Of a stretch of DNA of 64,000 nt, positions 17,414 to 31,309 are shown in pieces (the stretch's first letter is position 1; each line of letters starts with the position of its first letter). A model generated the notes under the pieces. The model was not told where the DNA came from. It made no database searches and saw nothing but the letters and a program-made list of their open reading frames with translations. The position numbers were made by a program, and so were the translations under genes. The stretch spans positions 992,001 through 1,056,000 of the forward strand of contig NZ_CP019419.1 in NCBI RefSeq assembly GCF_001975665.1. The letters are read 5' to 3'. The stretch is from Polaribacter reichenbachii. Lineage in GTDB: Bacteria; Bacteroidota; Bacteroidia; Flavobacteriales; Flavobacteriaceae.

Positions 17414-17755
17414 TTAAAGTTGAAAAACCTTTTCCAATTCAATCCATTTTTCGCCATCTTTTGCCCAAGGTAATTCTTGTTGATAATCCCACATTAGGTT
17501 TTCCCATTCTTGCACTTTTGGATTATTAGCGTCCATTGCTGCTTTTTTTGCAGGATCGAAAGTTTCATCAACCTCCATAATCATAAACATTCTATTACCT
17601 GTTAAATAGATTTGCATATCTACAATACCAGCATCTTTTATGCTTTTGGTAATTTCTGGCCACGCATTTCCTGCTGCGTGGTATTCTTTGTATTCTGCAA
17701 TTAATTTAGAATCGTCTTTTAAATCGCAAGAATAACAGTATCTTTTTGTGTTCAT
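17414..17755 (-). CDS. RhaM-family sugar mutarotase (L-rhamnose/L-fucose/L-galactose type)
   Basis: This 113-residue cytoplasmic protein belongs to the L-rhamnose mutarotase family (DUF718, YiiL/RhaM), which interconverts alpha and beta anomers of a free sugar. Family features seen are the KRYCYSCDLKDD start, the EYKEYHAAGNAWPEI segment, a DMQIYLTGNRMFMIMEV beta hairpin and the Trp-rich end. Length matches the family (about 104-115). It is the last gene of operon D, after a fucose-type permease, an SDR dehydrogenase, a lactonase and the altronate branch. The same mutarotase type sits in the Campylobacter jejuni L-fucose locus. Its real substrate here is thus probably L-galactose or L-fucose rather than rhamnose, for which no isomerase, kinase or aldolase gene is visible. 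Confidence 0.88.
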   Translation of the reverse strand: MNTKRYCYSCDLKDDSKLIAEYKEYHAAGNAWPEITKSIKDAGIVDMQIYLTGNRMFMIMEVDETFDPAKKAAMDANNPKVQEWENLMWDYQQELPWAKDGEKWIELEKVFQL

Positions 17756-17785
17756 AAGTTTTTTTTAATTAAAACAGATTTATCA

Positions 17786-17873
17786 GCCACGAATTCACGA
17801 ATTTTTCACCAATGAAAATGAATAATTATCACGAAAAATCTTTAAAAAGATTTTTTATTCGTGAATTCGTGGC
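17786..17873. repeat. Long inverted-repeat element in the FucP-mutarotase gap
   Basis: A perfect 17-base inverted repeat (GCCACGAATTCACGAAT / ATTCGTGAATTCGTGGC) flanks 54 bases, which hold a second hairpin (AAAAATCTTT / AAAGATTTTT). Each arm itself contains the palindrome CACGAATTCACG-like core. This resembles dispersed intergenic hairpin repeats of Bacteroidota genomes more than a simple terminator. It lies between two co-oriented genes and could also stabilise or attenuate the transcript. Confidence 0.75.
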
Positions 17874-17933
17874 AATTATTTATAGTTTGTACAACTCAAT
17901 AATTTAAAATAATGTATTGAACAAAAGTTATAA

Positions 17934-19256
17934 CTATGCTTTTGACTTTTTATATGTTGAATATCCATAAAAGGCTACAACTGCTAAACAAATTAATGGT
18001 AAAATAAAAGAGAAATTAACTTCTGGAATAAAGCCTAACACTTTTACATCAGCAAAACCAGAACCTCCCCAATCTAAAATTCCTCCTTGTAAAACTGGCA
18101 TTAAAGCCCCACCTACAATCGCCATTACTAAACCTGCTGAACCAATTTTTGCTTCATCTCCCATATCTTTTAAAGCGATTCCGTAAATAGTTGGAAACAT
18201 AATTGACATAAAAACTGAAACTGCTACTAAAGAAATTAAACCTGGCATACCTGATAATAAAATAGCACCTGCGCAACAAACTACACCTCCAATACCAAAA
18301 ATCATTAGCATTTTTGATGGATTAATTGTTCTCATTAAAGCAGTTCCTATCCATCTACCAATTAAAAATGAAATCATTGCAGCTACATTAAAATAAGTTG
18401 CTGTTAACTCCATACCTAAAGTTTCATTAATATTATCTACATATTGAAAAATATATGTCCAACACATAATTTGCGCACCTACATAAAAAGCTTGTGCAAC
18501 AACACCGAATTTATAATTGCTATTTGCAAATAATTTATTGAAAGATTCAGAAAGCGACATTTTATCTTCTTCTGCCGTTTTTGGCATTTTTGTAAAGATG
18601 ATAATCGTCATTATGATTAAAACCAAAATACCTAAACCTATATAAGGTACACTAATTATTCCTAAATCATTTTCTCTAACTGCTGCTAATTCATCCGAAG
18701 AAAGTGCATTATAAGCTTCTACTGTATAATCATCTGATCGTAAAGCACTAATTACAAAAACCTGTGCAATAATCATTCCTGTTAAAGAACCAATTGGGTT
18801 AAATGCTTGCGCTAAATTTAAACGTTGTGTTGATGTTTCTTTATCACCCAAAGCTAAAATTAACGGATTTGATGTGGTTTCTAAAAACGCTAATCCACAA
18901 GTAATTACCCATAAAGAGATTAAAAAGAACGTAAATGTTTCCTTTGCTGCTGCAGGATAAAACAAAAATGCACCAATTGCATACAAACTTAACCCTAAAA
19001 TAATTCCAGATTTATAACTGTATTTTCTGATAAATAAAGCTGCTGGTAAAGCCATAAAGAAATATCCAAAATAAAAGGCAAATTGCACTAATGATGCTTG
19101 CATATTAGACAATTCTGGCATCACTTTTTTAAATGCAGAAACCATAGGATTTGTTAAATCATTGGCAATTCCCCATAAAGCAAATAGCGATGTTATGATA
19201 ATAAAAGGGAACAACAATTCCTTTTTTACTACTGGTATTTTTTTAAGCTGACTCAT
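17934..19256 (-). CDS. fucP: FucP-type sugar:H+ symporter (major facilitator superfamily)
   Basis: This 440-residue integral inner-membrane protein has about twelve hydrophobic segments and the opening FALWGIANDLTNPM typical of the L-fucose permease group. It imports a free sugar with protons. The family includes carriers for L-fucose and for L-galactose-like substrates such as D-arabinose. Its place between the SDR dehydrogenase (120 bases upstream) and the mutarotase matches the arrangement of genes in L-fucose and L-galactose catabolic loci. A 120-base leader with no obvious terminator precedes it, so it may have an additional promoter. The name fucP marks family membership; whether the cargo is L-galactose or L-fucose is not decided by sequence. 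Confidence 0.88.
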   Translation of the reverse strand: MSQLKKIPVVKKELLFPFIIITSLFALWGIANDLTNPMVSAFKKVMPELSNMQASLVQFAFYFGYFFMALPAALFIRKYSYKSGIILGLSLYAIGAFLFYPAAAKETFTFFLISLWVITCGLAFLETTSNPLILALGDKETSTQRLNLAQAFNPIGSLTGMIIAQVFVISALRSDDYTVEAYNALSSDELAAVRENDLGIISVPYIGLGILVLIIMTIIIFTKMPKTAEEDKMSLSESFNKLFANSNYKFGVVAQAFYVGAQIMCWTYIFQYVDNINETLGMELTATYFNVAAMISFLIGRWIGTALMRTINPSKMLMIFGIGGVVCCAGAILLSGMPGLISLVAVSVFMSIMFPTIYGIALKDMGDEAKIGSAGLVMAIVGGALMPVLQGGILDWGGSGFADVKVLGFIPEVNFSFILPLICLAVVAFYGYSTYKKSKA

Positions 19257-19376
19257 ATTTTAGTTAATTTTAATAATATTAAAAGTCTTTTATCTTTTTA
19301 ATTTTAACAATGAAACTTGAATTAGTTCTTGATTTAACTTTCTAAAACAAAATATCTCGAACTAATATTTTATACA

Positions 19377-20168
19377 TTATTCTGTTAATAAAGATCTATC
19401 TAAATTTACATAACCACCATCTACAGCTATAAACTGACCTGTAGTGTGTGACGATCTTTCTGATATAGTAAACAAACACTGATCTGCAATTTCTGCTGGT
19501 GTTGTCATTCTATTTTCTAACGGGATTTTCTTAACAATAGATTTTAGTTTTTCTTCTCCATTTTCTAAAGTTTTAATCCAAGCATCGTAAGCTGGTGTCC
19601 AGCTTTCTGCTATAATTATTGCATTACAACGAATTTTATCTTTGATTAAATCTACTGCCCATTCTCTGGTTAAACCTAAAACTCCTCCTTTTGATGCTGC
19701 ATAACCAGAAGTGCCTCCTTGACCTGTTAAACCAACTTTAGAACCAATATTTAAGATATTTCCTGTTGATGCTTTTAAGAATGGTAAAGCGTGTTTTACC
19801 ACTAAAAAATAACTGACCATATTTAGTTTTAAAGACCACATAAAATCTTCGTAAGACGCGTCTAAACCAACACCATCATTAACACCAACATTATTAATTA
19901 CAGCGTCTATTTTACCATATTTATCTGTAATTTTCTTTATAGATGCTTCTATTTGGCCTGGGTTTGTAACATCCGTTTTACAAAAAATAGCATCTATGCC
20001 TCTTGCTTGCAATTCTTCTACATATACAAAACCTCTATCGTTTCTATCTATAATGGCTGGTATTGCGCCTTCTGCAGCTAAATGTTGTACAATAGTTTCT
20101 CCTATACTTCCTTTAATTCCTGCTGCTCCAGTTATTAATACTACTTTATCTTTTAATCCTAAATCCAT
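19377..20168 (-). CDS. Short-chain dehydrogenase, probable L-galactose/L-fucose dehydrogenase
   Basis: This 263-residue NAD(P)-dependent short-chain dehydrogenase has the cofactor motif TGAAGIKGSIG near residues 14-24, NNVG at about 91-94, and the catalytic serine/YAASK region (SGYAASKGG). It ends in the usual IAVDGGYV. In sugar loci this type oxidises the anomeric carbon of L-fucose or L-galactose to a lactone. The adjacent lactonase, permease and mutarotase fit that role, and a homologous combination is known for L-fucose use in Campylobacter. The downstream Zn-dehydrogenase, UxaB and UxaA genes favour L-galactose as the main substrate. A hairpin at 20191-20223 lies between it and the lactonase gene, so its transcript may be partly attenuated. 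Confidence 0.85.
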   Translation of the reverse strand: MDLGLKDKVVLITGAAGIKGSIGETIVQHLAAEGAIPAIIDRNDRGFVYVEELQARGIDAIFCKTDVTNPGQIEASIKKITDKYGKIDAVINNVGVNDGVGLDASYEDFMWSLKLNMVSYFLVVKHALPFLKASTGNILNIGSKVGLTGQGGTSGYAASKGGVLGLTREWAVDLIKDKIRCNAIIIAESWTPAYDAWIKTLENGEEKLKSIVKKIPLENRMTTPAEIADQCLFTISERSSHTTGQFIAVDGGYVNLDRSLLTE

Positions 20169-20190
20169 TACTTAATATTTTTATATAAAT

Positions 20191-20223
20191 AGCCCATTCA
20201 GGTTTTAAAAGCCTGAATGGGCT
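20191..20223 (-). terminator. Hairpin between lactonase and dehydrogenase genes
   Basis: A 12-base perfect stem (AGCCCATTCAGG / CCTGAATGGGCT) with a 9-base loop sits 9 bases after the lactonase stop codon. It is GC-richer than its surroundings, but only a weak U run follows on the minus strand. It may be a partial terminator or a 3'-stabilising hairpin inside operon D rather than a full stop. Confidence 0.6.
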
Positions 20224-20232
20224 TAAATTCAT

Positions 20233-21060
20233 TTACAAATTGTAAAATTTAATTGCATTTTCACCCATTATTTTGGCTTTTTCATCATCAGAAAAATCTG
20301 CAATAAAATTGGTTACTATATTTTTTACTTGACCATAATTACCTGCCACTAAACAAACTGGCCAATCTGAACCATACATAATTCTATCTGTACCAAAAGC
20401 ATTAAATACTAAATCCAAATACGGATTTAGTTCTACTTCTGTCCAAGTTTTGTAATTGGCTTCTGTAATCATTCCAGATACTTTACAAAACACATTTTCT
20501 AGTTTAGCAATGGCTTTCATTTGATTTGCCCATCCATCAAAAAAACCATCTTTTATATACGGTTTTGCAATATGATCTATTACAAATTTGATGTTTGGAA
20601 ATCTCTTTACAAACTCTAAAGTTGCTCCTAATTGATGTGGAAACACCAAAATATCATACGTGAAATTGTGTTTTTCTAATGCTGAAATTCCGTTTAAAAA
20701 ATTAGGCCTTAACAAAAAGTTATGATCTGCTTCTCCTTGCACAACGTGTCTAAAACCTTTTACAGCTTTATAATTGCTATATTTTTCTAAGACTTGCTCA
20801 ATATCATTTCCTCTTAAATCAACCCAACCCACAATTCCTTTTATAAAATTGTTTTTTGATGCTAAATCAATTAAAAAATCAGTTTCTCCTAAAGTTTGGT
20901 CTGCTTGCACAGCAACACAACCATCCACACCATTTTCTTGATATACTTTTTGTAAATCTTCTGGCAAAAAATCACGTCGAATTACAGCCATTTCATCATC
21001 TATCCAGCTGTGTTTTACAGGTTCGTATTGCCAAAAATGTTGGTGTGAATCTATAATCAT
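20233..21060 (-). CDS. Amidohydrolase-family sugar lactonase (L-galactono/L-fucono-lactonase)
   Basis: This 275-residue metal-dependent hydrolase belongs to the amidohydrolase group that contains L-fuconolactonase, L-galactonolactonase and 2-pyrone-4,6-dicarboxylate lactonase (COG3618). The N-terminal metal motif IIDSHQHFW, KFVIDHIAKP in the middle and the C-terminal RIMYGSDWPV with the key aspartate are all visible. It would hydrolyse the lactone made by the neighbouring SDR dehydrogenase to the open sugar acid. The protein lacks a signal peptide and is cytoplasmic. It begins 3 bases downstream of the UxaB stop codon. Enzymes of this group from gut Bacteroides have been shown to act on L-galactono-lactone, which matches the rest of the operon. 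Confidence 0.9.
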   Translation of the reverse strand: MIIDSHQHFWQYEPVKHSWIDDEMAVIRRDFLPEDLQKVYQENGVDGCVAVQADQTLGETDFLIDLASKNNFIKGIVGWVDLRGNDIEQVLEKYSNYKAVKGFRHVVQGEADHNFLLRPNFLNGISALEKHNFTYDILVFPHQLGATLEFVKRFPNIKFVIDHIAKPYIKDGFFDGWANQMKAIAKLENVFCKVSGMITEANYKTWTEVELNPYLDLVFNAFGTDRIMYGSDWPVCLVAGNYGQVKNIVTNFIADFSDDEKAKIMGENAIKFYNL

Positions 21061-21063
21061 TTT

Positions 21064-22494
21064 TTACAATGCTTTTAATGCTGATTGCATTCCTTTTTCT
21101 GTAATTGCAGTTAAATGTTTTGTAACTGTTTCTTGTAAACCATTAAAAGAAGTTAAATCTACTCCCCAAAAACCTGTATTTTCTAAAGTAGCTTTTACAA
21201 TAGATGGTATATCATTAGTTGCCCATTGATTTGTAAAGAAATCTAATGCTGATTGATCATCTTTTAAAGGAATTGCTTCACCATTTCTATCGCCTTTATA
21301 AAAAGCAATTAATGAAGCTAAAGAGAATAATAAACGATTTGGTAATGCGTCTTTTCTTTTGATGTACTCTAAAACTGATGGCAATACTCTTGTTTTGTAT
21401 TTTGATGTTGAGTTTAAAGAAATACTAATTAAAGCGTGCTCTAAATACGGATTTCTAAATCTGTCTAGCACATCATTTGCAAACTGATTTAACTCTGCTT
21501 CTGGTAAATCTAAAGTTGGACAAATTTCTTCGAAAATGGCATCCTTTAGGAAACCACCAACAACATCATCTTCTAAAGATTCACGAACTTTATCAATTCC
21601 GTATAAATAACCAACTGGCACTAAACTAGTATGTGCACCATTTAAAATTCGCACTTTACGAGTTCTGTATGGTTCTTGATTGTCTGTAAAAACAATGTTT
21701 AATCCACAAGCCTCTGCTGGAATTTCTTCTTTTACAGTTGACGGCCCTTCAATTACCCATAAATGGAATTGCTCACCTTCTACCACCAAATTGTCTTTAT
21801 AACCTAACTCTTTGGTGATTGCATCCATTTTATCTCTTGGATAACCGGGTACAATTCTATCTACCAAAGTGTTACAAAAAATATTATCTTCATTTATCCA
21901 TTCTACAAAATCCCCTCCTAAATCCCAATCAGCTGCATATTGTAAAATGATTTTCTTTAGATTTTCTCCGTTTTTATCAATTAACTCACAAGGAATTACA
22001 ATCATTCCTTTGTCTGAAGCACCTCCAAAAGTTTGGAATCTCTTGTATAATAATGCTGTTAATTTCCCTGGAAAACTGCTCTGTGGAGCATCATCTAATT
22101 TATCATCTGCATTATAAGCAATACCAGCTTCTGTGGTATTAGAAATTACAAAACGTAAATCTGGATTGTCTGCAATTGCTAAATAATCTGCATTGTTTTC
22201 ATAAGGATTTATACCTCTTTGAATACAATCGATAATTTCGTGTTCGCTAATTGCTTCTCCGTTTTTAATTCCGTTTAAGTATAAAGTGTACAATCCATCT
22301 TGATCGTTTAACATCTTTATTAACCCTTGATTGATAGGTTGAACAACAACAACGCCAGCATCAAAATCGGCTTGTTTGTTCATTTCGTGAATCATCCAGT
22401 TTGCAAAGGCTCTTAAAAAATTACCTTCTCCAAATTGCACAATTCTTTCTGTATATGTTTTTACTTTAGCTGTACTTCTGTTTAAATTTTGCAT
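21064..22494 (-). CDS. uxaB: Tagaturonate reductase (altronate oxidoreductase)
   Basis: This cytoplasmic NAD-dependent enzyme of the polyol dehydrogenase family is about 476 residues long. It interconverts D-tagaturonate and D-altronate. I start it at 22494 because MQNLNRS...YTERIVQFGEGNFLRAF then aligns with the start of E. coli UxaB; an upstream ATG at 22512 adds six residues. The FGEGNF nucleotide-binding start, VRILNGAHTSLVP and the following helical domain match UxaB rather than mannitol dehydrogenase. It normally serves galacturonate degradation, but no uronate isomerase (UxaC) is seen here. With the Zn-dehydrogenase at 24215-25225 it would instead finish the C5 epimerisation of L-galactonate to D-altronate. 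It follows uxaA by 50 bases and precedes the lactonase by 3. Confidence 0.9.
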   Translation of the reverse strand: MQNLNRSTAKVKTYTERIVQFGEGNFLRAFANWMIHEMNKQADFDAGVVVVQPINQGLIKMLNDQDGLYTLYLNGIKNGEAISEHEIIDCIQRGINPYENNADYLAIADNPDLRFVISNTTEAGIAYNADDKLDDAPQSSFPGKLTALLYKRFQTFGGASDKGMIVIPCELIDKNGENLKKIILQYAADWDLGGDFVEWINEDNIFCNTLVDRIVPGYPRDKMDAITKELGYKDNLVVEGEQFHLWVIEGPSTVKEEIPAEACGLNIVFTDNQEPYRTRKVRILNGAHTSLVPVGYLYGIDKVRESLEDDVVGGFLKDAIFEEICPTLDLPEAELNQFANDVLDRFRNPYLEHALISISLNSTSKYKTRVLPSVLEYIKRKDALPNRLLFSLASLIAFYKGDRNGEAIPLKDDQSALDFFTNQWATNDIPSIVKATLENTGFWGVDLTSFNGLQETVTKHLTAITEKGMQSALKAL

Positions 22495-22544
22495 TATTTT
22501 TTCTTTTAGCAATTAGCACTCTGCCTTTCGCTTTTAGTAATTAA

Positions 22545-24197
22545 TTATAATGAAACTCCTCTTTTCCAAGGAATAAAATCGTTATTTCCGTGTAAAACTG
22601 CTTTTGATGGTGTTTCTCCACTGGCAACTCTAATAATATGATCTAAAATCTTTTCTCCCATAGTTGCAATAGTGTCTTCACCAGTAATTACAGTTCCTGC
22701 ATTGATATCAATAATATCATTCATACGTTCGTATAAATTGGTATTACTAGACATCTTTAAAACAGGTGCAACAGGATTACCAGTTGGTGTTCCTAAACCT
22801 GTTGTAAACACCACAACATTACAACCAGAACCAACTAAACCTGTTGTAGATTCTACGTCATTTCCTGGTGTACATAATAAATTTAAACCCGGTTTTGTAA
22901 CTTGTTCTGTATAATCTAACACTTTTACAACAGGAGATGTTCCTCCTTTTTTAGCTGCTCCTGCAGATTTCATTGCATCTGTGATTAATCCATCTTTGAT
23001 GTTTCCTGGTGAAGGATTGTTCTCAAATCCAGAACCTACAGCCACTGCAGCTGCTGAATACGCTCTCATTAATCCGTAGAATTTTTTAGAATCTTCTTCA
23101 GTTTCACATCTATTGATTAATTCTTGCTCTACTCCATTTAATTCTGGAAATTCTGCTAAAACTGGGCTTCCTCCTAAAGCCACTAACAAATCTGAGGCGT
23201 AACCTAAAGCCGGATTTGCAGAAATTCCTGAAAAACCATCTGAACCACCACATTCTAAACCTAAAGTCAATTTACTTAATGGTGCAGGTTTACGCTCTAA
23301 TTTATTGGCTTCAACTAAACCTAAAAAGGTATATTTTACAGCTTCTTCTATTAAATGTCTTTCGCTTACACTTCTTTGCTGTTCTAAAAAGTGAACTGGT
23401 TTTGTGTTATTTGGTGCTATTTTATCAATAGCTTCTTGCAACATTTCAATTTGTGCATTTTGGCATCCTAAGCTAAAAACGGTAGCGCCTGCAACATTTG
23501 GATTGGTAATATAACCTGCCAATAATTGACACAACATTTGAGAATCTTCACGTGTACCTCCACAACCACCATCGTGTTTTAAGAATTTAATTCCGTCTAC
23601 ATTTGGGAATATTCTGTTTTTAGACATTTCTTCTTTTGTAGTGATAATTGGTGTGTTAAAAATAGCATCATTAGATGCTCCTGATTTGTATTGTTGAATT
23701 AAAGCATCTGTATCTACAGCAAAATCTTTTTTGGTTTCATACCCTAATTTTTCTGATAAAGCACCTTCTAAAACATCAACATTTCTGTTTTCGCAAAACG
23801 TTAACGGAATTACCAACCAATAATTTGCAGTACCTACTTTACCATCTTCTCTATGAAAACCGTTAAAAGTTCTTCCTTCAAAATTAGATGCATCTGGTGC
23901 AGACCATGTAAATTTTTCTTTTTCTTCTTTAAATTCTGCGGATGCGTGTTTTACATTATCTATGGTAATGGCACATCCTTCAGGAATTTCTTGAACAGCT
24001 TTACCTATTAAAACACCATACATATAAATTTCATCTCCAACATTAAAATCGTTTAATGAGAATTTATGTTTTTGTTTAATGTTTTCTTTTAAAACAACTT
24101 CTTTACCTGCTACTTCTATAATTCTCCCTTTTTCTAAAGGATTTATTGCAACGATAATATTGTCTCTTGTATCTATTTGAACGTAGTCTTTAGACAT
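22545..24197 (-). CDS. uxaA: Altronate dehydratase
   Basis: This 550-residue cytoplasmic dehydratase has an N-terminal SAF domain (about 1-95). The long UxaA/GarD-type catalytic region begins at NGFHREDGKVGTANYW. Cysteines likely to bind iron occur in GGCGGTRED and in the SLGCQNAQIE region. It is longer than E. coli UxaA (about 495 residues), mainly from insertions, and is unbroken. The enzyme removes water from D-altronate to give 2-keto-3-deoxy-D-gluconate. A related pair of genes sits in the L-fucose locus of Campylobacter, so acceptance of L-fuconate is an alternative. Here the presence of UxaB and a Zn-dehydrogenase makes altronate the best fit. It starts 17 bases after the Zn-dehydrogenase gene. 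Confidence 0.88.
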   Translation of the reverse strand: MSKDYVQIDTRDNIIVAINPLEKGRIIEVAGKEVVLKENIKQKHKFSLNDFNVGDEIYMYGVLIGKAVQEIPEGCAITIDNVKHASAEFKEEKEKFTWSAPDASNFEGRTFNGFHREDGKVGTANYWLVIPLTFCENRNVDVLEGALSEKLGYETKKDFAVDTDALIQQYKSGASNDAIFNTPIITTKEEMSKNRIFPNVDGIKFLKHDGGCGGTREDSQMLCQLLAGYITNPNVAGATVFSLGCQNAQIEMLQEAIDKIAPNNTKPVHFLEQQRSVSERHLIEEAVKYTFLGLVEANKLERKPAPLSKLTLGLECGGSDGFSGISANPALGYASDLLVALGGSPVLAEFPELNGVEQELINRCETEEDSKKFYGLMRAYSAAAVAVGSGFENNPSPGNIKDGLITDAMKSAGAAKKGGTSPVVKVLDYTEQVTKPGLNLLCTPGNDVESTTGLVGSGCNVVVFTTGLGTPTGNPVAPVLKMSSNTNLYERMNDIIDINAGTVITGEDTIATMGEKILDHIIRVASGETPSKAVLHGNNDFIPWKRGVSL

Positions 24198-24214
24198 TTG
24201 GTTCTTTCTTTTTT

Positions 24215-25225
24215 TTAATTAAAACTTACAGTCGCTTTGATTACGCCCGTTTTTGGATCTAACCAACTATCAAAATTTTCGATCATTTCTGTATAAGCTA
24301 CAGAATGCGTAATAAATGATTCTGTTGGAAACTGATTTAACACACTAATTACGTGTTCAAAATCTTCTGTAGTTGCATTTCTACTACACATTAATGTCAT
24401 TTCTTTAGCGTGTACTTTTGGATGTGTATACGTTAACTCTCCTTTAGATAAGCCTACCAAAACAAATCGACCTCCATGAGACATATAATCTGGACAAGAT
24501 TCTAAAGCATACTTATTTCCTGATGCATCAAAAACTGCTGTGCATAAATCGCCATTGGTAATTTTTGAAACTTCTTCTACTGCTTCTGCTCCTGCTTTTA
24601 CAATATAATCAACACCAATCTTTTCTTTGGCGTATGTTAAACGATCTTCGTTCATATCAATAGCAATTACTTTTGCACCTGCAATCTGAGCTAATTTCAT
24701 AATTCCAATTCCTATGGGTCCTGCACCTACAACTGCAACAATTTCACCTTTTTGAATTGCTGCTCTTCTTACTGCATGTGCACCAATAGCCAAAGGCTCT
24801 ACAATAGCCATTTCGTTATCTGACAGGTTATTTGCAGGTAATAAAATGTCTACAGGAACCGTAATTTGTTCTTGCATTCCTCCATCTCCATGTACACCTA
24901 AAACAGTAATATTTGTGCAACAGTTTGTTTTGCCATTTCTACAAGCAATACATTTACCACAACTTACATAAGGCATAACAACTACTTTATCTCCAGCTTT
25001 TATTCCTCTCGCATTTTCTCCTATTTCTAAAACTTCTGATGCCAATTCATGCCCTAAAATTCTTGGATAAGTAAAAAATGCTTGATTCCCTGCATAAGCG
25101 TGTAAATCTGTACCGCAAATACCCACTTTATTAATCTGTAATAAGGCTTCGCCTTCTTTTCTTATTGGAGCCTCTTTTTCTTTTAAGATAAATTCTCCGG
25201 GTTTTTCACAAACTATGTACTTCAT
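24215..25225 (-). CDS. Zn-dependent dehydrogenase, probable L-galactonate 5-dehydrogenase
   Basis: This 336-residue medium-chain zinc dehydrogenase has catalytic-zinc residues in VGICGTDLH (about 36-44) and GHE (about 58-60). The structural-zinc cysteines are in CGKCIACRNGKTNCC, and the nucleotide motif is VGAGPIGIG (about 166-174). In E. coli a protein of this type (LgoD/YjjN) oxidises L-galactonate to D-tagaturonate, the substrate of UxaB. The gene lies directly upstream of uxaA and uxaB, so the assignment is attractive but rests on context. Sorbitol or threonine dehydrogenase activity is the alternative from family alone. It follows the GH29 gene by 40 bases and belongs to operon D. Confidence 0.8.
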   Translation of the reverse strand: MKYIVCEKPGEFILKEKEAPIRKEGEALLQINKVGICGTDLHAYAGNQAFFTYPRILGHELASEVLEIGENARGIKAGDKVVVMPYVSCGKCIACRNGKTNCCTNITVLGVHGDGGMQEQITVPVDILLPANNLSDNEMAIVEPLAIGAHAVRRAAIQKGEIVAVVGAGPIGIGIMKLAQIAGAKVIAIDMNEDRLTYAKEKIGVDYIVKAGAEAVEEVSKITNGDLCTAVFDASGNKYALESCPDYMSHGGRFVLVGLSKGELTYTHPKVHAKEMTLMCSRNATTEDFEHVISVLNQFPTESFITHSVAYTEMIENFDSWLDPKTGVIKATVSFN

Positions 25226-25265
25226 TCGTTGTGTTTTAATACTATTCGATTAGTTCTAATTTAAA

Positions 25266-26780
25266 TTACTTTATAAGCTTAAGTGTAAATGCAAAATCTC
25301 CTTTTTTAACTTTTGGCATTTGTACAGTTAAACCTTTGTCAGTTTGTTTCCAAGTTAATTTTTCGTCACTACCAAGCATTGTAACGTTTTTAATATTATC
25401 ACTTGCTTTTATTGATGAAATAGTAACTTTATTATTTTCTGGCCACTCCATTAAAATTGCATAAATGTTACCATCTTTCTGCGTAAAACGCATATCTTGA
25501 CCCGTAAACGCTTTATTACCACCTTCTGAATGATGACCTGTACCAACTTCTGTTGGTCCTTCACCAAAAGTTCTCCAGTATTTTGTATCGTAAATTGCCT
25601 CTCCGTTAACATCTAACCAAGCTCCAATTTGTAATAAAATTTTCTCTTGATCTTCAGGAATTGTTCCATCTGCTTTTGGTCCAACGTTTAATAATAAGTT
25701 TCCATTTTTAGAAACAATATCAATTAAATCATCAACCAAAGAATTTGCAGTTTTAGATTTCCAGTTGGTTACGTGAGACCATGAATTTTTACCAATAGAA
25801 GTATCTGTTTGCCAAGGCAGTTTACGAATGTCTGGTAATTTTCCTCTTTCTAAATCATAAATAACTGTACCTTCTGGAAAAGCTTGTTCGTAAAAGTTTT
25901 TGTCTTGTAGCACAACTTCTTTACCCCACTCAAGCCCTTTATTATAATAATAAGCTGCTAATTTTGGTCTGTATTCTCTAAACTCTGGAGTATCTAACAT
26001 AAAATCGAACCAAAGAATATCTGGTTGATAGTTATCGATTAAATCTTTTGTTCTTAACCACCAACGTTTTTTAAATGCTTCTGAAACGGGTTCTCTTAAA
26101 TTTTTTCCTTTTGATGAATATAAATCTGCATATGCTGGATCTGTGGTATCAAAATGATCTTTTTTATTGTAAAAAGACCAGTTGAATGCAAAGTGAGAAG
26201 AAGCTCCCATTATTAAACCTTGTTTTCTACCTTCTTTCATCAACTCACCTAAAACATCTCTTTTTGGCCCCATATCAAAAGAGTTCCAACGAGTTGTATT
26301 TGATTTATACATAGCAAAACCATCATGATGATCTGCAACAGGAACTACATATTTTGCACCCGCTTTTTTGAAAAGTGAAATCCACTCTGCTGGCTGAAAT
26401 TTTTCCGCTTTAAACATCGGAATAAAATCTTTGTACCCAAACTTTTTATGATCTCCGAAGTTTTTTTGATGAAATAAAAACTCTCTAGAAGGACCATCTG
26501 CTTGATGTTTTAATTGAGCTGTATATCTAGCAGAGTCCATATACATATTTCTAGGATACCATTCTGAACCATAAGCAGGCACTGCATAAGCACCCCAATG
26601 AATAAAAATACCAAACTTCTTTTGATTAAACCATTCTGGGTCTTTATAATGTTTTTTTATTGACTCCCAATTTGCCTCGTAAACTTCTTTGTTTTCTGCA
26701 ACCGCTTTTTTTTCTTCTGTTTTACAAGAAACAAGAACCACAATTGCAAATAAGATTAATGCTGATAATTTCCTACTCAT
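25266..26780 (-). CDS. GH29 alpha-L-fucosidase/alpha-L-galactosidase lipoprotein
   Basis: This 504-residue retaining glycosidase of family GH29 has a lipoprotein signal (VLVSC, lipid cysteine residue 19). Family landmarks are FGIFIHWGAYAVPAYGSEWYPRNM at about 56-79, VADHHDGFAMY (about 148-158) and the nucleophile motif ILWFDF with aspartate 259. Two C-terminal beta regions follow. GH29 enzymes usually release alpha-L-fucose, and a porphyran-locus member from Bacteroides plebeius releases alpha-L-galactose, which differs only by a C6 hydroxyl. It is the first gene of the operon that encodes the putative L-galactose pathway, so I favour alpha-L-galactosidase. An AGAACA-type palindrome lies 88 bases before the start. 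Confidence 0.9.
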   Translation of the reverse strand: MSRKLSALILFAIVVLVSCKTEEKKAVAENKEVYEANWESIKKHYKDPEWFNQKKFGIFIHWGAYAVPAYGSEWYPRNMYMDSARYTAQLKHQADGPSREFLFHQKNFGDHKKFGYKDFIPMFKAEKFQPAEWISLFKKAGAKYVVPVADHHDGFAMYKSNTTRWNSFDMGPKRDVLGELMKEGRKQGLIMGASSHFAFNWSFYNKKDHFDTTDPAYADLYSSKGKNLREPVSEAFKKRWWLRTKDLIDNYQPDILWFDFMLDTPEFREYRPKLAAYYYNKGLEWGKEVVLQDKNFYEQAFPEGTVIYDLERGKLPDIRKLPWQTDTSIGKNSWSHVTNWKSKTANSLVDDLIDIVSKNGNLLLNVGPKADGTIPEDQEKILLQIGAWLDVNGEAIYDTKYWRTFGEGPTEVGTGHHSEGGNKAFTGQDMRFTQKDGNIYAILMEWPENNKVTISSIKASDNIKNVTMLGSDEKLTWKQTDKGLTVQMPKVKKGDFAFTLKLIK

Positions 26781-26867
26781 TATAACTTAGGTTGATTAAT
26801 ATTTTTTCTTAATACAAATTAGGTCTATTTTTAGCTAATAGTAATATTCGTATGTTTTAATTTGTGC

Positions 26868-26887
26868 AACAAATAGTCATTTGTTCT
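26868..26887 (-). promoter_or_regulatory. Inverted repeat AACAAAT-agtc-ATTTGTT upstream of GH29 operon
   Basis: A perfect 7-base inverted repeat with a 4-base spacer is continued by CT, so that the minus strand begins AGAACAAATG. It ends 88 bases before the GH29 start, nearly the same distance as the AGAACAT blocks at 34214, 60689 and 63277. It likely carries the operator of operon D. The half-sites are spaced wider than in the other copies. Confidence 0.5.
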
Positions 26888-26996: not shown

Positions 26997-28412
26997 TTAT
27001 TTACCCCATACTTTTTCCATTTCCTCTAAAGTTTTACCTTTGGTTTCTGGCACGTATTTCCATACAATAAATGTTGCAATTATTCCCATTAATCCGTAAA
27101 TCCAATAGGCAAATCCGTGATTGAATTTTTCTAGTAAATAGGAGTTTTTATCCATCATAGGAAAAGTCCAAGAAACAATATAATTGGCAATCCATTGTGC
27201 TGCAACAGCAAGTGCCATTGCTTTGCCTCTAATTTTATTCGGGAAAATTTCTGATAACAACACCCATACTACTGGCCCCCAACTCATCGCAAAACTTGCA
27301 ACATAAACCAACATACAAATCAATGCAAAAACACCCACAGATTCACTAAAAAATGCGCCTCCTAATGCAAACATGGCAACTGCCATACCTAAAGCTCCAA
27401 TAATCATTAGAGGTTTTCTACCGAATTTATCTACTGTCATAATAGCTAAAACCGTAAATAATAAGTTTACAGCACCAACAATTATAGTTTGTAATAAAGC
27501 TGTATCTGTACCAGAACCCATACTTTTAAAGATTTCTGGTGCATAATATAAAACTACATTAATACCCACGAATTGCTGAAAAATAGACAATAACAAACCT
27601 ATTATAATCACACCAATTCCGAAAGAAAACAATTTTCCTGAATGACTAACAACTGTATTTTGAATTTCGGCTAAAATTCTTTTTCCTTCTTCTAAACCAT
27701 TAACCTTTATTAAAACATTTAATGCTTTTTCTGGATTGTTCTTTAAAACCAAAGATCTTGGTGTATCTGGTACAAAAAACAATAAAAATAAAAATAAACA
27801 TGCAGGTATCATTTCTGATGCAAACATCCATCTCCAACCAATAGTATTCAACCAAGTATCATTTCCTTGTTTTGCTATATAGTAGTTTACAAAATACACC
27901 ACTAACATACCAAAAATTATAGCAAACTGATTTAAAGAAACTAATTTACCTCTACTTTTTGCAGGTGCAATTTCTGCAATATACAAAGGCGATAACATAG
28001 AAGCTAAACCAACTCCTATACCACCAATAATTCTATAAACTATAAATACGTAAATTAAATTATGATCGCCTTCGCCAATTGGTTTTATAAATATTTCTGG
28101 CATTGATGAACCTAATGCTGAAAACAGAAACAGCAAAGCAGCTAGAATTAACCCTTTTTTTCTACCTAATTTTTTACTGACAACACCACCAAAAATTCCA
28201 CCAATTATACAACCAATTAATGCACTAGAAACAACAAAACCTAAACGTGCATTTGCAGCATTTTCTCCTAACTTAAAAGGAAGTACAAAAAAACTTTCTA
28301 AAGAGCTTACTGTACCCGAAATCACTGCTGTATCGTAACCAAATAACAATCCACCTAAGGTGGCTACTAAAGTTAGTTTTAGCAGATAACCTGAACTCGT
28401 TGTTTTTTCCAT
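26997..28412 (-). CDS. xylE: XylE-type sugar:H+ symporter (major facilitator superfamily)
   Basis: This 471-residue inner-membrane transporter of the sugar-porter family has twelve expected hydrophobic segments. It carries the signatures GGLLFGYDTAVISG near the N-terminus, KKLGRKKG and DKFGRKP loop motifs, PDTPRSL, and PETKGKTLEEME at the C-terminus. It resembles bacterial D-xylose:H+ symporters, and its place after xylA and xylB supports xylose as cargo. The gene is separated from xylA by a strong 17-base hairpin (28443-28479). It may therefore be expressed at a lower level or from another start. A terminator follows it. Glucose or galactose uptake is possible in this family, so the symbol reflects context as well as sequence. 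Confidence 0.87.
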   Translation of the reverse strand: MEKTTSSGYLLKLTLVATLGGLLFGYDTAVISGTVSSLESFFVLPFKLGENAANARLGFVVSSALIGCIIGGIFGGVVSKKLGRKKGLILAALLFLFSALGSSMPEIFIKPIGEGDHNLIYVFIVYRIIGGIGVGLASMLSPLYIAEIAPAKSRGKLVSLNQFAIIFGMLVVYFVNYYIAKQGNDTWLNTIGWRWMFASEMIPACLFLFLLFFVPDTPRSLVLKNNPEKALNVLIKVNGLEEGKRILAEIQNTVVSHSGKLFSFGIGVIIIGLLLSIFQQFVGINVVLYYAPEIFKSMGSGTDTALLQTIIVGAVNLLFTVLAIMTVDKFGRKPLMIIGALGMAVAMFALGGAFFSESVGVFALICMLVYVASFAMSWGPVVWVLLSEIFPNKIRGKAMALAVAAQWIANYIVSWTFPMMDKNSYLLEKFNHGFAYWIYGLMGIIATFIVWKYVPETKGKTLEEMEKVWGK

Positions 28413-28442
28413 AATGTTGTTTTTAGTAATTAGTTTTAGTCA

Positions 28443-28479
28443 AAAAACCCAACTAAATAAAATATTTAGTTGGGTTTTT
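28443..28479. terminator. Strong hairpin between xylA and the permease
   Basis: A perfect 17-base stem (AAAAACCCAACTAAATA / TATTTAGTTGGGTTTTT) with a 3-base loop has T runs on both strands. It lies 5 bases after the xylA stop and 30 bases before the permease start. As a terminator it would reduce read-through from xylA into the permease gene. Confidence 0.88.
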
Positions 28480-28484
28480 GTTTT

Positions 28485-29810
28485 TTAGATATATTGATTA
28501 ATAATGTTTTCGAACAATTCTTGTTTACCACTTTTTAAAGTTAACTCTCCATTTTCTTGTGCAATCTTGTATAAATCTTGCATTGTTAATTTTCCGTCTT
28601 CAAAAGATTTTCCATTACCAGCATCAAAAGAAGCGTAACGTTCTTCTCTTAATTTTTCGTAAGGTGAAGAAGTCATAATTTTATCAGCAATTAATAAAGC
28701 TCTTGCAAATGTGTCTGCACCACCAATATGAGCATAAAAAACATCCTCTAAATCTGTAGAATTTCTTCGGATTTTAGCATCAAAATTGATACCTCCACCT
28801 TGTAAACCACCAGCTTTTAAGAATACTAACATAGCTTCTGTAGTTTCTTGAATGTTATTTGGAAACTGATCTGTATCCCATCCGTTTTGATAATCTCCAC
28901 GATTTGCATCTAAACTACCCAACATTCCTGCATTTGCAGCAACTTCTAATTCGTGTTGAAAAGTATGTTGTGCTAATGTTGCGTGATTTACTTCGATATT
29001 CATTTTAAAATCGTCTTGTAAACCATATTTATTTAAGAACCCAATTGCTGTTGCTGAATCAAAATCGTATTGATGTTTCATTGGCTCCATTGGCTTAGGC
29101 TCAATAAAGAAATTACCTTTAAAACCTTGGGCTCTTGCATAGTCTCTTGCCATTGTTAAAAACTGACCCATATGATCTAACTCACGACCCATATCTGTAT
29201 TTAACAAAGACATATAACCTTCTCTACCACCCCAAAAAACATAATTCTCTCCACCTAAAGCAATAGTTGCATCTAAAGCCAATTTTATTTGACCACCTGC
29301 TCTTGCAACTACATTGAAATCTGGATTTGTAGCAGCACCATTCATATATCTTGGATTAGAAAAACAGTTTGCTGTACCCCATAATAATTTGATACCAGAT
29401 TCAGCTTGTTTACCTTTTAAATACTCTGTAATTGTTGCTAATCTTTGTTCTGATTCTGCAAAAGTTGTGCCTTCTTGAATTAAATCGTAATCGTGAAAAC
29501 AGAAATAATCAAAACCCATTTTACTAATAAATTCGAAAGCTGCATCTGCTTTATCTTTTGCTGCTTGTACTGGATCTGAAGATTGATCCCAAGCAAAATT
29601 TTGTGTTCCAGGACCAAAAGGATCTGAACCTTGACCACAGAATGTATGCCAATACGCAATTGCAAATTTAAAATGCTCACGCATTGTTTTACCTGCCACA
29701 ACCTGGTCTGGATTGTAGTATTTAAACGCTAAAGGATTGTCTGATTCCTTACCTTCAAATTTAATTTCTCCAATACCTTTATAGTATTCTTTATTTCCTA
29801 TAATTGCCAT
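28485..29810 (-). CDS. xylA: Xylose isomerase
   Basis: This 441-residue cytoplasmic enzyme interconverts D-xylose and D-xylulose. The TIM-barrel motifs of the long (class II) xylose isomerases are present: FCFHDYDL around residue 101, the [17 protein letters not shown] segment, [13 protein letters not shown] with metal-binding glutamate, [19 protein letters not shown] and [17 protein letters not shown]. Length agrees with the family. It follows xylulokinase by 17 bases, forming the core of operon E. A hairpin immediately downstream marks a likely transcript end. Nothing in the protein is unusual; it fixes xylose as a sugar this organism gains from the glycans handled here or from other xylans. 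Confidence 0.97.
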
Positions 29811-29827
29811 AATTTTTTTTTATTAAT

Positions 29828-31306
29828 TTATTTACTTAATTTTTTTTCTAATTCGGTTTTCCAGTTTTGATAAGCTTCTTCGTAAGCCTTTTTATTTTTT
29901 AAAGGAACAAATGTCATTACATGATCATTATTAGTAATGTTTTCGCCAAAGGTTTTAAAATCGCCATTTCTTAAACCTACTGCTCTTGCAGCGCCAATTG
30001 CACCTGTTGTATTATAAATCTCTATTTCTTGCCCTATTAAAGTAGCCACTGTATTTGAGAATATTTCTGAACGGAATAAATTATCATTCCCTGCTCTAAT
30101 TACATCAATTTTTGCGTTGTCGTTTTTTAAGATTTCCATTCCGTATACAAATGAAAAAGCAATACCTTCTAAAGCTGCTCTGTATAAATGTCCGTTATTA
30201 TGAATATTGAAATTTACATTCACAAAATGAGCACCAATATTTGTGTTATTTAGCATACGTTCTGCTCCATTACCAAAAGGTAAAATGGAAACACCTTCTG
30301 AACCCACAGCAACTTGAGATGCTTTTTCGTTCATCTCTTCGTAAGAAATATCACCTAAATTATTTTTAAGCCATCTATACAAAATACCTGAACCATTAAT
30401 ACATAACAACTTACCTACATTTTTAAGATTTTTAGCATAATTAATGTGTGCAAAATTGTTAATTCTGATAGATTCTTTTGATTTTAATTGATCTGTAACT
30501 GCATAAATAACGCCAGATGTACCACCAGTTGCAGCAACTTCACCAGGATTAAACACATTTAAAGACAATGCATTATTAGGCTGATCTCCTGCTCTGTATA
30601 CAATAGGAATTCCTTTTGGTAAGCCAGTAATTTCTGAAGCTTTTGCATGAACTTCGCCTTGATTTGTAAAATTATCGACAACTTCTGGAGTTAAGGATGG
30701 CGATATTCCATAATATTCTAATAACCAGTCTGCAACTTTATCTTCTTTATAATCCCAAAGAATACCTTCTGATAAACTATTTTTAGTTGTGCAGACTTTA
30801 CCAGATAATTTCGCTGCGATAAAATCTCCAGGTAACATATATTTATGAATTTTATCATAAACTTCTGGTTCATTATCTTTTACCCATTTTAATTTAGAAG
30901 CTGTAAAATTTCCAGGAGAATTTAGTAAATGTTCTGTACACTTTTCTTCTAAATCGTTAAAGGCTTTGTTGCCAATTGCTACTGCTCTACTGTCGCACCA
31001 AATAATTGAATTTCGTAAAGATTTAAGATTTTCATCAACCACAACCAATCCATGCATTTGATAAGAAATGCCTATACCTGTAATTTTAGATGCATCTATT
31101 CCTGATTCTGCAATGGCTTTTTTTGTAGCAATACAAATATAATTCCACCACATTTCAGGGTCTTGTTCTGCCCAATCATTCTGAACTGCTAAAATTTCCA
31201 TTTCAGCTTCTGGTTCATTTTTTGTGATGATATTTGCGCCCGATTTTGCATCAACCAAAGCAACTTTTATAGAAGAACTACCAATATCGTAACCTATGTA
31301 ATACAT
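29828..31306 (-). CDS. xylB: Xylulokinase
   Basis: This 492-residue cytoplasmic kinase of the FGGY family phosphorylates D-xylulose to xylulose 5-phosphate for the pentose phosphate pathway. It opens with YYIGYDIGSSSIKVALVD (ATP-binding fold), has GIGISYQMHGLV and IIWCDSRA, a GTSGVIYAV loop and the C-terminal ALEGIAFSFVYGMEI signature. It starts 3 bases after the regulator stop codon and precedes xylA by 17 bases, so regulator, kinase and isomerase share one message. Other FGGY sugars are possible by family, but the position next to xylose isomerase makes the role clear. Confidence 0.95.
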   Translation of the reverse strand: MYYIGYDIGSSSIKVALVDAKSGANIITKNEPEAEMEILAVQNDWAEQDPEMWWNYICIATKKAIAESGIDASKITGIGISYQMHGLVVVDENLKSLRNSIIWCDSRAVAIGNKAFNDLEEKCTEHLLNSPGNFTASKLKWVKDNEPEVYDKIHKYMLPGDFIAAKLSGKVCTTKNSLSEGILWDYKEDKVADWLLEYYGISPSLTPEVVDNFTNQGEVHAKASEITGLPKGIPIVYRAGDQPNNALSLNVFNPGEVAATGGTSGVIYAVTDQLKSKESIRINNFAHINYAKNLKNVGKLLCINGSGILYRWLKNNLGDISYEEMNEKASQVAVGSEGVSILPFGNGAERMLNNTNIGAHFVNVNFNIHNNGHLYRAALEGIAFSFVYGMEILKNDNAKIDVIRAGNDNLFRSEIFSNTVATLIGQEIEIYNTTGAIGAARAVGLRNGDFKTFGENITNNDHVMTFVPLKNKKAYEEAYQNWKTELEKKLSK

Positions 31307-31309
31307 AAT

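Follow-up and report, generated by a model that had tools for sequence, protein, structure and literature searches.

Among the closest described systems, the Bacteroides (Phocaeicola) vulgatus route encoded by BVU_0219, BVU_0220 and BVU_0222 comprises a sugar dehydrogenase, a lactonase (reportedly BVU_0220) and an L-galactonate dehydrogenase that yields D-tagaturonate. Its first enzyme is of a type, shared with LguA and plant GalDH, that belongs to the aldo-keto reductase (AKR) class. The functions of BVU_0219 (sugar dehydrogenase) and BVU_0222 (L-galactonate dehydrogenase) are cited in the available part of PMC12632266, where BVU_0219 groups with LguA and plant GalDH and where the E. coli reactions downstream of LgoD are described. 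In E. coli K-12, LgoD acts with UxaB and UxaA, lgoD stands beside lgoT and lgoR, and the adjoining stretch has no annotated sugar dehydrogenase, lactonase or glycosidase. Luteolibacter LG18, of another phylum, carries the dual L-glucose/L-galactose cluster lguABCDEF, which according to the accessible portion of its description includes the NADP-dependent, BVU_0219-like dehydrogenase LguA, LguD, LguC (UxaB function), LguB (UxaA function) and a KDPG aldolase, with the KDG kinase elsewhere; the lgu genes named there include neither a lactonase nor a GH29 gene, and there is an extra C4 epimerase, LguG.

The depolymerisation of porphyran, a polysaccharide of red seaweeds that contains the rare mirror-image sugar L-galactose, is well described. 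In the cycle of Bacteroides plebeius, whose porphyran PUL includes BpGH29, BpS1_11 and GH16 porphyranases, an exo-L-Gal-6-sulfatase is followed by an exo-alpha-L-galactosidase; the available part of PMC12316285 deals with depolymerisation only, and the words "L-galactonate", "tagaturonate" and "altronate" are absent from its main text. The 3,6-anhydro-L-galactose pathway of Vibrio EJY3, Zobellia, Aquimarina and Paraglaciecola, as given in the accessible portions of PMC10163077, PMC5943477 and PMC5613140, likewise reaches KDG and also requires KDG kinase and KDPG aldolase, but it employs a cycloisomerase and three dehydrogenases, one of them an aldehyde dehydrogenase. In the literature searched we found neither the fate of freed L-galactose in marine bacteria nor a marine operon of the kind reported here, a description of which may still exist in print.

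The window analysed, a 64,000-nt stretch of the Flavobacteriaceae genome of a probably marine bacterium, contains an eight-gene operon (Table 1) that we regard, with a probability of roughly 85%, as a unit devoted to L-galactose use within an island for porphyran degradation. This reading is based on the set of genes present, their conserved order, sequence homology, co-occurrence and a common upstream motif, and the substrate of every operon enzyme is one that we infer from sequence. The sequence-only reading had listed eight families in one orientation, bounded by a terminator and an upstream palindrome. All eight were indeed found complete on the minus strand, in the order (from the 5' end) GH29, Zn-dehydrogenase, UxaA, UxaB, lactonase, SDR, FucP-type permease and RhaM-family mutarotase, with intergenic gaps of 3–120 nt and 178 nt ahead of RhaM by ORF coordinates; a hairpin follows RhaM, and a perfect inverted repeat (AACAAAT-N4-ATTTGTT, 26868-26885) overlaps the upstream site common to relatives. 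Promoter-like sites showed no excess (52 vs a shuffle mean of 60.5) and were not used.

Table 1. Features of the operon and its surroundings (positions within the window)
Feature	Position	Strand	Support
Operon, eight genes	17414-26780	minus	all ORFs complete, order as in the text
GH29 lipoprotein, likely exo-alpha-L-galactosidase, first operon gene	25266..26780	minus	PF01120 + PF16757
Zn-dependent L-galactonate 5-dehydrogenase, LgoD-type (predicted L-galactonate to D-tagaturonate)	24215..25225	minus	ADH_N/ADH_zinc_N
UxaA, predicted D-altronate dehydratase	22545..24197	minus	GD_AH_C 321.5 bits
UxaB, predicted D-tagaturonate reductase	21064..22512	minus	NF002969 694.6 bits, cut-off 359
COG3618-type lactonase, putative L-galactono-lactone hydrolysis	20233..21060	minus	PF04909 (Amidohydro_2) 168 bits
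SDR of L-fucose-dehydrogenase family, putative L-galactose 1-dehydrogenase	19377..20168	minus	NF052481 345.6 bits, cut-off 300
FucP-type sugar:H+ symporter, putative L-galactose importer	17934..19256	minus	TIGR00885 509 bits, cut-off 280
RhaM-family mutarotase	17414..17755	minus	PF05336 111 bits
Terminator-like hairpin 3' of RhaM	17390-17347	minus	stem of 19 pairs with a T-rich tail after it
Predicted regulator site upstream of GH29	26849..26878	minus	matrix score 26.6
Upstream terminator-like hairpin, 3' of xylose operon	26967-26936		hairpin scan
Adjoining upstream xylose operon	26997..32311	minus	sugar transporter, xylose isomerase, xylulokinase-like FGGY kinase, GntR-type regulator
Sulfatase, close homologue of exo-L-galactose-6-sulfatase	32446..34122	minus	607.6 bits to 7LHA, against 349.9 to 5G2V as the next function
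GH16 beta-porphyranase, PorB homologue	62317..63189	minus	430.4 bits to porphyranase B (3JUU), 137.6 to the next match

In the proposed scheme a porphyranase would cut the porphyran chain, the S1_11-type sulfatase would take the 6-sulfate off terminal L-galactose and the GH29 lipoprotein would free the L-galactose, which the FucP-type permease would bring in and whose anomers the RhaM-family enzyme would interconvert. The SDR may then oxidise L-galactose to L-galactonolactone and the lactonase open the ring to give L-galactonate, which the LgoD-type Zn-enzyme would oxidise at C5 to D-tagaturonate; reduction by UxaB would yield D-altronate, dehydration by UxaA would yield the common sugar-acid intermediate KDG, and a KDG kinase and KDPG aldolase would deliver pyruvate and glyceraldehyde 3-phosphate. 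The operon would offer L-galactose a complete route into central metabolism. The last two enzymes had been predicted to be encoded elsewhere, and candidates do lie side by side at 1.099-1.100 Mb, 80 kb from the operon: the aldolase exceeds a curated cut-off, and the kinase is of the PfkB family with its best NCBIfam matches below their cut-offs. By homology, candidates for UxaB, UxaA, KDG kinase and KDPG aldolase are thus all present in the genome.

The pathway logic is already known from B. vulgatus, Luteolibacter and the E. coli Lgo route, and the operon would be a variant of it. The COG3618-type lactonase is shared with B. vulgatus by homology (PF04909), but the first enzyme here is an SDR and there is no AKR, while the permease, mutarotase, UxaA, UxaB and GH29 are joined in one operon within the porphyran island. 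The earlier reading had cited a lactonase/dehydrogenase route of gut Bacteroides; the lactonase and the LgoD-related Zn-enzyme agree with it by homology, and the first enzyme is not of the BVU_0219 type.

The GH29 protein, whose N-terminus is hydrophobic and then has a Cys, matches PF01120 at 348 bits in the family scan, and its best PDB matches are 7SNK and 7LJJ (432 and 429 bits; next enzyme 290). The Asp in its ILWFDF motif, which we take to be the catalytic nucleophile, aligns with a residue that is Asn in 7LNP. BpGH29, the B. plebeius exo-alpha-L-galactosidase, is by far the nearest solved relative of the operon enzyme; it shares 44% identity with this enzyme and with the 74% paralogue of the latter, and 36-41% with the other four of the genome's six GH29s. 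An exo-alpha-L-galactosidase releasing L-galactose is the likely function on these similarities; the similarity cluster of BpGH29 includes fucosidases too, according to the available part of PMC11189522.

Homologues of the B. plebeius PUL enzymes occur in the window, and more porphyranase-like GH16 genes are found at 0.982 Mb and 0.972 Mb. The earlier proposal of L-galactose catabolism fed by the GH29 enzyme gains from the proximity of the latter to BpGH29, from the porphyranase-B and sulfatase homologues, from the co-occurrence described below and from the absence of any PF07881 L-fucose isomerase match genome-wide at E≤0.001. Agar or porphyran had been named as the source; the porphyran half of this stands, the agar half does not, as anhydro-L-galactose apparently has its own cluster (a separate candidate at 0.954-0.962 Mb), and porphyran L-galactose-6-sulfate is the likely source rather than agar. 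The same cluster was considered as an L-fucose or rhamnose route and rejected, since family scans and the Aquimarina gene list fit the anhydro-L-galactose set better.

The Zn-dehydrogenase is 41% identical to E. coli LgoD over 337 aa, and 30% to the genome's Zn-dehydrogenase at 0.961 Mb. It retains Cys, His and Glu at the usual zinc-ligand positions, where they presumably bind zinc, and by homology to LgoD, the reference compared, it probably belongs with L-galactonate dehydrogenases. UxaA scores 280.6 bits on the galactarate-dehydratase equivalog, under its cut-off of 730.85. The lactonase, whose closest solved structure is the amidohydrolase 4DLF, reaches 267.9 bits on the L-fucono-lactonase model NF052480, below the cut-off of 400, and the mutarotase 21.6 bits on the L-rhamnose mutarotase equivalog (cut-off 99.6).

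A protein search with the Zn-dehydrogenase, in which the top 7999 candidates were scored, listed 120 matches; the related loci are the best 80 among 120 encoding stretches. In 37 of these best 80 of 120 the seven genes from Zn-dehydrogenase to RhaM keep the same order and strand, so the arrangement is more than chance, and the L-galactose reading accounts for this conserved block. Both UxaA and UxaB lie downstream on the same strand in 53 of the best 80, only one in 10 and neither in 17; three of the latter are cut by a contig end and 12 retain the SDR together with lactonase, FucP or both. In 17 of the best 80 the identity of UxaB to the operon protein is only 45-50%. A GH29 match is present in only 24 of them, at least 65% identical in 12 (a cut-off picked after the data were seen). 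Homologues of KDG kinase and KDPG aldolase both occur within 12 of the best 80, in nine of these between Zn-dehydrogenase and UxaA. Beyond close relatives, where neighbourhoods were taken for 16 of the 32 genomes matching at phylum level besides the window's own, 13 of 16 neighbourhoods of more distant or family-level Zn-dehydrogenases have no UxaA or UxaB match. The adjoining xylose operon was rejected as part of the unit: among the best 80 of 120 loci its isomerase and kinase were matched in none, its sugar transporter in two (36-41% identity) and its GntR gene in three.

Co-occurrence was assessed in 299 related genomes, with Fisher tests that ignore shared ancestry. The Zn-dehydrogenase is present in 30 of 31 genomes with an L-Gal-6-sulfatase homologue of at least 56% identity, a cut-off picked after the data were seen, vs 25 of 268 without; under the looser sulfatase criterion of E≤1e-130 the count is 34 of 38 genomes, and for genomes with porphyranase it is 18 of 20. 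As a control, alginate-lyase genomes carry it in 21 of 71 cases vs 34 of 228 without the lyase, and within the former it is found in 18 of the 19 that have the sulfatase and in 3 of the 52 that lack it. The Zn-dehydrogenase is commoner in FucI genomes too (10/21 vs 45/278).

The SDR and lactonase alone do not distinguish L-galactose from L-fucose, and the operon might instead degrade L-fucose (or D-arabinose) oxidatively, with an ordinary alpha-L-fucosidase at its head. The SDR, which carries Tyr156-x3-Lys160, and the permease both exceed the cut-offs of fucose models (NF052481 and FucP), the genome has six GH29 genes, and the L-fucose-like clusters L111 and L113 combine an SDR 69-70%, a Zn-dehydrogenase 53-54% and a lactonase 54-57% identical to those of the operon (homologues in L115 are more distant), so that in other places three of the genes work on another sugar as well. 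An L-fucose route is expected to include an FAA hydrolase and a further SDR; clusters with the 69-70% SDR hold both (Pfam-checked in L111 only), whereas the eight operon genes include neither, nor a fuconate dehydratase, KDF dehydrogenase or diketo-acid hydrolase (MR_MLE_C has three matches genome-wide, one at 3.52 Mb). Established chemistry, moreover, leaves UxaA, UxaB and a C6-acting kinase no role in breaking down a 6-deoxy or five-carbon sugar. In a tree that took in 21 of the 80 loci (L090, without an ORF, was left out), the operon Zn-dehydrogenase falls in a 25-row branch of moderate support (93/63), outside which the Zn-dehydrogenases of L-fucose-like clusters lie. With the GH29 enzyme nearest to an L-galactosidase and the strong sulfatase co-occurrence also against it, we consider an L-fucose operon very improbable.

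The recurrence of the same SDR and lactonase types in other contexts would also suit a broad unit oxidising several L-galacto-type sugars, of which L-galactose would be only one beside L-fucose, D-arabinose and perhaps, on the Luteolibacter pattern, L-glucose; the specific linkage to porphyran enzymes, and the lack among the eight genes of any family match hinting at a C4 epimerase (LguG function), make this very improbable. Hardly credible is a main role of UxaA and UxaB in D-galacturonate use with the remaining genes as passengers. UxaB and UxaA are the classic galacturonate enzymes and a GH28-family gene is present in the window, but at 0.818-0.821 Mb a second uxaB-uxaA pair, with identities of 50% and 55%, adjoins pectin-type genes (ORFs that by eye resemble LacI regulator and pectate lyase genes), no uronate isomerase (UxaC) family match is found among the eight genes, and the seven-gene order is conserved as above.

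The operon also suggests that there is an L-galactose dehydrogenase of a new type. Within the best 80 of 120 loci, the 49 operons with lactonase and FucP have an SDR in 42 and an AKR in the same slot in seven, which suggests that the SDR is the L-galactose dehydrogenase. On balance, and with due reserve, we favour the wider view that this is one case of an undescribed L-galactose regulon through which marine Flavobacteriaceae in general dispose of the L-galactose of porphyran. In this view an SDR of the L-fucose-dehydrogenase family serves as L-galactose dehydrogenase interchangeably with an unrelated aldo-keto reductase, and the operon has two forms, one headed by LacI and the other by GH29 with a hybrid two-component system. 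Many proteins of seaweed bacteria that are annotated as fucosidase, fucose permease or fucose dehydrogenase would then in truth handle L-galactose, and annotations of seaweed degraders that refer to fucose may be wrong.

The regulatory motif was chosen by eye upstream of 12 GH29-led loci and was visible in nine (no site was seen upstream of GH29 in L068, L074 and L075); after removal of the near-duplicate L102, the matrix was built on eight sites from relatives, the window excluded. The operon site is joint top in 230 kb, and six Markov controls gave maxima of 14.6-15.8 in five and 21.5 in one. The site is found again ahead of a hybrid two-component regulator gene and of a second GH29 gene, and we infer that the hybrid regulator encoded at 0.89 Mb controls the operon. 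A LacI gene stands divergent to the Zn-dehydrogenase in 33 of the best 80 of 120 loci, with an operator-like palindrome in 27 of the 33. LacI control of the operon itself is not supported, the palindrome TTYAAWCGWTTRAA of these LacI-led relatives being absent from the window at up to one mismatch and from the GH29 upstream region at up to three. The best match of their LacI in this genome is the LacI beside the KDG kinase, and the palindrome occurs twice, with one mismatch, between these two genes.

The eight genes that the sequence-only reading had assembled into an L-galactose operon (GH29, Zn-dehydrogenase, UxaA, UxaB, lactonase, SDR, FucP and RhaM) are present on the minus strand in the order claimed. 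Both claimed bounds were found, as a 19-pair terminator-like hairpin 3' of the operon and a perfect inverted repeat 5' of GH29; a second terminator-like hairpin lies 5' of GH29, at the end of the neighbouring xylose operon. In an NCBIfam profile scan three proteins exceeded their curated cut-offs: UxaB as a tagaturonate reductase, the SDR as an L-fucose dehydrogenase, and FucP. The lactonase and RhaM-like protein gave Pfam family matches, the L-fucono-lactonase and L-rhamnose-mutarotase equivalogs not being reached. Judged from sequence, the operon appears to be a variant of the already known L-galactose pathway, and what is new is chiefly the exchange of the SDR for an aldo-keto reductase (AKR), the apparent displacement of a kinase/aldolase/LacI half, the linkage to porphyran and a common regulator site. 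Between the FucP and RhaM genes (window 17786-17873) there is an imperfect inverted repeat (CCACGAATTCACGAAT ... ATTCGTGAATTCGTGGC, minus-strand reading), which may be a mobile repeat element.

The Zn-dehydrogenase shares 41% identity with E. coli LgoD across 337 aa. Together with UxaB and UxaA it would invert C5 and yield KDG, because this is the chemistry of the E. coli and Luteolibacter pathways as described in an excerpt of PMC12632266. KDG would then require a C6-acting kinase and KDPG aldolase, which had been expected elsewhere in the genome and for which adjacent candidates were indeed located (see the table), with a LacI gene adjoining them. A match to L-fucose isomerase (PF07881) is absent from this genome. 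The ORFs near a second uxaB-uxaA pair were judged by eye to be LacI-regulator-like and pectate-lyase-like.

Relatives were sampled as the best 80 of 120 loci encoding close relatives of the Zn-dehydrogenase. Anywhere in these 80 loci, matches were found to lactonase in 63, UxaB in 59, UxaA in 58, SDR in 55, FucP in 51, RhaM in 50 and GH29 in 24, and to KDG kinase and KDPG aldolase in 12 each. When only same-strand genes downstream of the Zn-dehydrogenase are counted, five loci being shortened by contig ends, Zn-dehydrogenase, UxaA, UxaB, lactonase, SDR, FucP and RhaM occur together in 37/80, always in that order, and UxaA and UxaB are both present in 53/80, one in 10/80 and neither in 17/80, 12 of these 17 still having the SDR alongside lactonase, FucP or both. 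Kinase and aldolase stand between Zn-dehydrogenase and UxaA in 9 of the 12 loci, and LacI is divergent to the Zn-dehydrogenase in 33 of the best 80, a palindrome occurring at no more than one mismatch in 27 of these 33 intergenic regions. The best match of the divergent LacI genes is the LacI beside this genome's KDG kinase (61-73% identity). We infer that the kinase, aldolase and LacI genes found together in this genome represent a second half of the operon that has been displaced. In one relative (L079:6022-7248) a phosphofructokinase-family gene separates KDG kinase from KDPG aldolase. Four loci (L062, L082, L084, L093) match Zn-dehydrogenase and UxaB, the remaining operon genes being without a match, which is possibly L-galactonate-only use; in L062 a saccharopine-dehydrogenase-like gene comes next.

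Features discussed in the text, with positions and supporting matches
Feature	Position	Evidence
Sulfatase	window 32446-34122	608 bits vs 7LHA (exo-L-galactose-6-sulfatase); next function 350
GH16 (PorB homologue)	window 62317-63189	430 bits vs porphyranase B (3JUU); next 138
Porphyranase-B-like GH16 stretch	G000:C1:972320-973153 (0.972 Mb)	57% identity to window PorB
Porphyranase-like GH16	0.982 Mb	184 bits vs 4AWD, the top match
PfkB-family protein (KDG kinase candidate)	within 1.0987-1.1004 Mb	105.9 bits; KDG-kinase-type NCBIfam best matches, below cut-offs
KDPG aldolase	within 1.0987-1.1004 Mb, adjoining the PfkB-family gene	NF005499 above cut-off
Second uxaB-uxaA pair	G000:C1:818273-821361 (L022:10273-13361)	50% and 55% identity to the operon's UxaB and UxaA
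Candidate anhydro-L-galactose cluster	G000:C1:954444-962227 (L010, L011; 0.954-0.962 Mb)	
Predicted regulator site	window 26849-26878	upstream of GH29
Hybrid two-component regulator gene	G000:C1:891613-895866 (L007:11613-15866)	propeller, kinase, receiver and AraC-type domains
Regulator paralogue	L014:4358-8587 (about 1.074-1.079 Mb)	55% identity
Kinase/aldolase between Zn-dehydrogenase and UxaA	L039, L043, L049, L059, L067, L076, L077, L079, L104	
Kinase/aldolase upstream of Zn-dehydrogenase	L040, L057, L060	3/12

We take the known L-galactose dehydrogenases LguA (Luteolibacter) and BVU_0219 (B. vulgatus) to be of the AKR class. Among the best 80 of 120 loci, 49 operons carry lactonase and FucP, with the SDR in 42 and absent in 7. 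In all seven, L064 of Lutibacter agarilyticus among them, the SDR slot is occupied by a gene of 315-317 aa whose product has an aldo-keto reductase model as its best NCBIfam match, at a score far below cut-off, and both of the slot proteins scanned (2 of 7) match Aldo_ket_red in Pfam. The swapping of unrelated enzymes at one slot points to a single reaction for both, putatively L-galactose oxidation. LguA and BVU_0219 fall in one cluster according to an excerpt of PMC12632266.

The SDR and lactonase do not determine the substrate, because homologues occur in L-fucose-like sets, of which one was checked by Pfam (L111), one assigned by sequence likeness (L113) and a third is more distant (L115). 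In L111 and L113 the Zn-dehydrogenase is 53-54%, the SDR 69-70% and the lactonase 54-57% identical to those of the window, and the L-fucose-like sets also hold an FAA hydrolase gene and a second SDR gene. UxaA/UxaB matches are absent in 13 of the 16 retrieved neighbourhoods of more distant or family-level Zn-dehydrogenases. A 39-row Zn-dehydrogenase tree separates the L-fucose-like rows from a branch of 25 rows that contains the window and all 20 rows labelled UxaA or UxaB nearby, although the support of this branch (93/63) is not strong. L-galactose as the substrate, the central claim of the sequence-only reading, is supported, and the case for it rests on the Zn-dehydrogenase with UxaB, UxaA and the candidate KDG kinase, and on the porphyran setting.

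The window GH29 scores 432 and 429 bits against structures of the B. plebeius exo-alpha-L-galactosidase BpGH29 (7SNK and 7LJJ), the next enzyme reaching 290. The genome has six GH29 genes, all at 0.896-1.074 Mb, and identity to BpGH29 is 44% for the window protein and its 74% paralogue (0.896 Mb) vs 36-41% for the other four. In an excerpt of PMC12316285, porphyran oligosaccharides are attacked by sulfatase, then GH29, then beta-galactosidase; homologues of the sulfatase and GH29 of this B. plebeius-type order are both in the window. Across 299 genomes of the family the Zn-dehydrogenase (E<=1e-130) was found in 55, including 34 of the 38 genomes that matched the sulfatase at E<=1e-130 and 18 of the 20 that matched porphyranase B (E<=1e-60). 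The p-values, all inflated by shared ancestry, were 3e-24 (Fisher) for sulfatase of at least 56% identity (30/31 genomes vs 25/268 others), 0.001 for FucI (10/21 vs 45/278), an association present but weaker, and 0.008 for the weak alginate-lyase control (21/71 vs 34/228). Omitting the window's own genome leaves 29/30 for the sulfatase, and among alginate-lyase genomes the Zn-dehydrogenase was present in 18/19 with sulfatase vs 3/52 without.

Of the two sugar sources that had been proposed, agar or porphyran, the second is the likelier. Agar's anhydro-sugar probably bypasses the window operon, which would serve porphyran's L-galactose, because a separate cluster at 0.954-0.962 Mb resembles the Aquimarina anhydro-L-galactose gene set, as given in an excerpt of PMC10163077. 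This cluster encodes a GH43-type hydrolase (possibly GH117-like), a RhaT-like transporter, an aldose epimerase, an MR_MLE enzyme, an ORF that by eye resembles an aldehyde dehydrogenase, a KduD-like SDR and a Zn-dehydrogenase, and its probable role is 3,6-anhydro-L-galactose catabolism. The target may be a xylose-bearing sulfated agaran instead of plain porphyran, because many sulfatase, GH2, GH43, GH16 and GH28 genes (window 32446-63189) adjoin the xylose operon.

As to regulation, no LacI match was found in the 12 loci, among the best 80 of 120, with a GH29 at least 65% identical upstream of the Zn-dehydrogenase. Nine of these 12 GH29-led loci share an upstream site, picked by eye, and a matrix built from eight of the nine, the window excluded, was used to scan 230 kb of this genome. 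Its three top matches lie 5' of the window GH29 (26.6), the hybrid regulator gene (26.6) and the paralogous GH29 (24.5), whereas of six Markov controls five had maxima of 14.6-15.8 and the sixth reached 21.5. We infer that the hybrid two-component regulator may control the operon via the predicted site. Homologues of 61-70% identity occur in 6 of the 12 GH29-led loci; a nearby regulator of this type is not confined to them, because 14 other loci of the best 80 carry homologues of 53-56%. The fourth matrix match (window 15446-15475; score 19.0, inside the control range) has a AACATATGTT-type repeat and lies upstream of a 768-aa protein with Por_Secre_tail (13015-15321). Directly downstream of the operon terminator, window 15764-17326 encodes a 520-aa protein that combines FG-GAP repeats with a CxxCH motif and was matched near the operon in just 1 of the best 80 of 120 loci.
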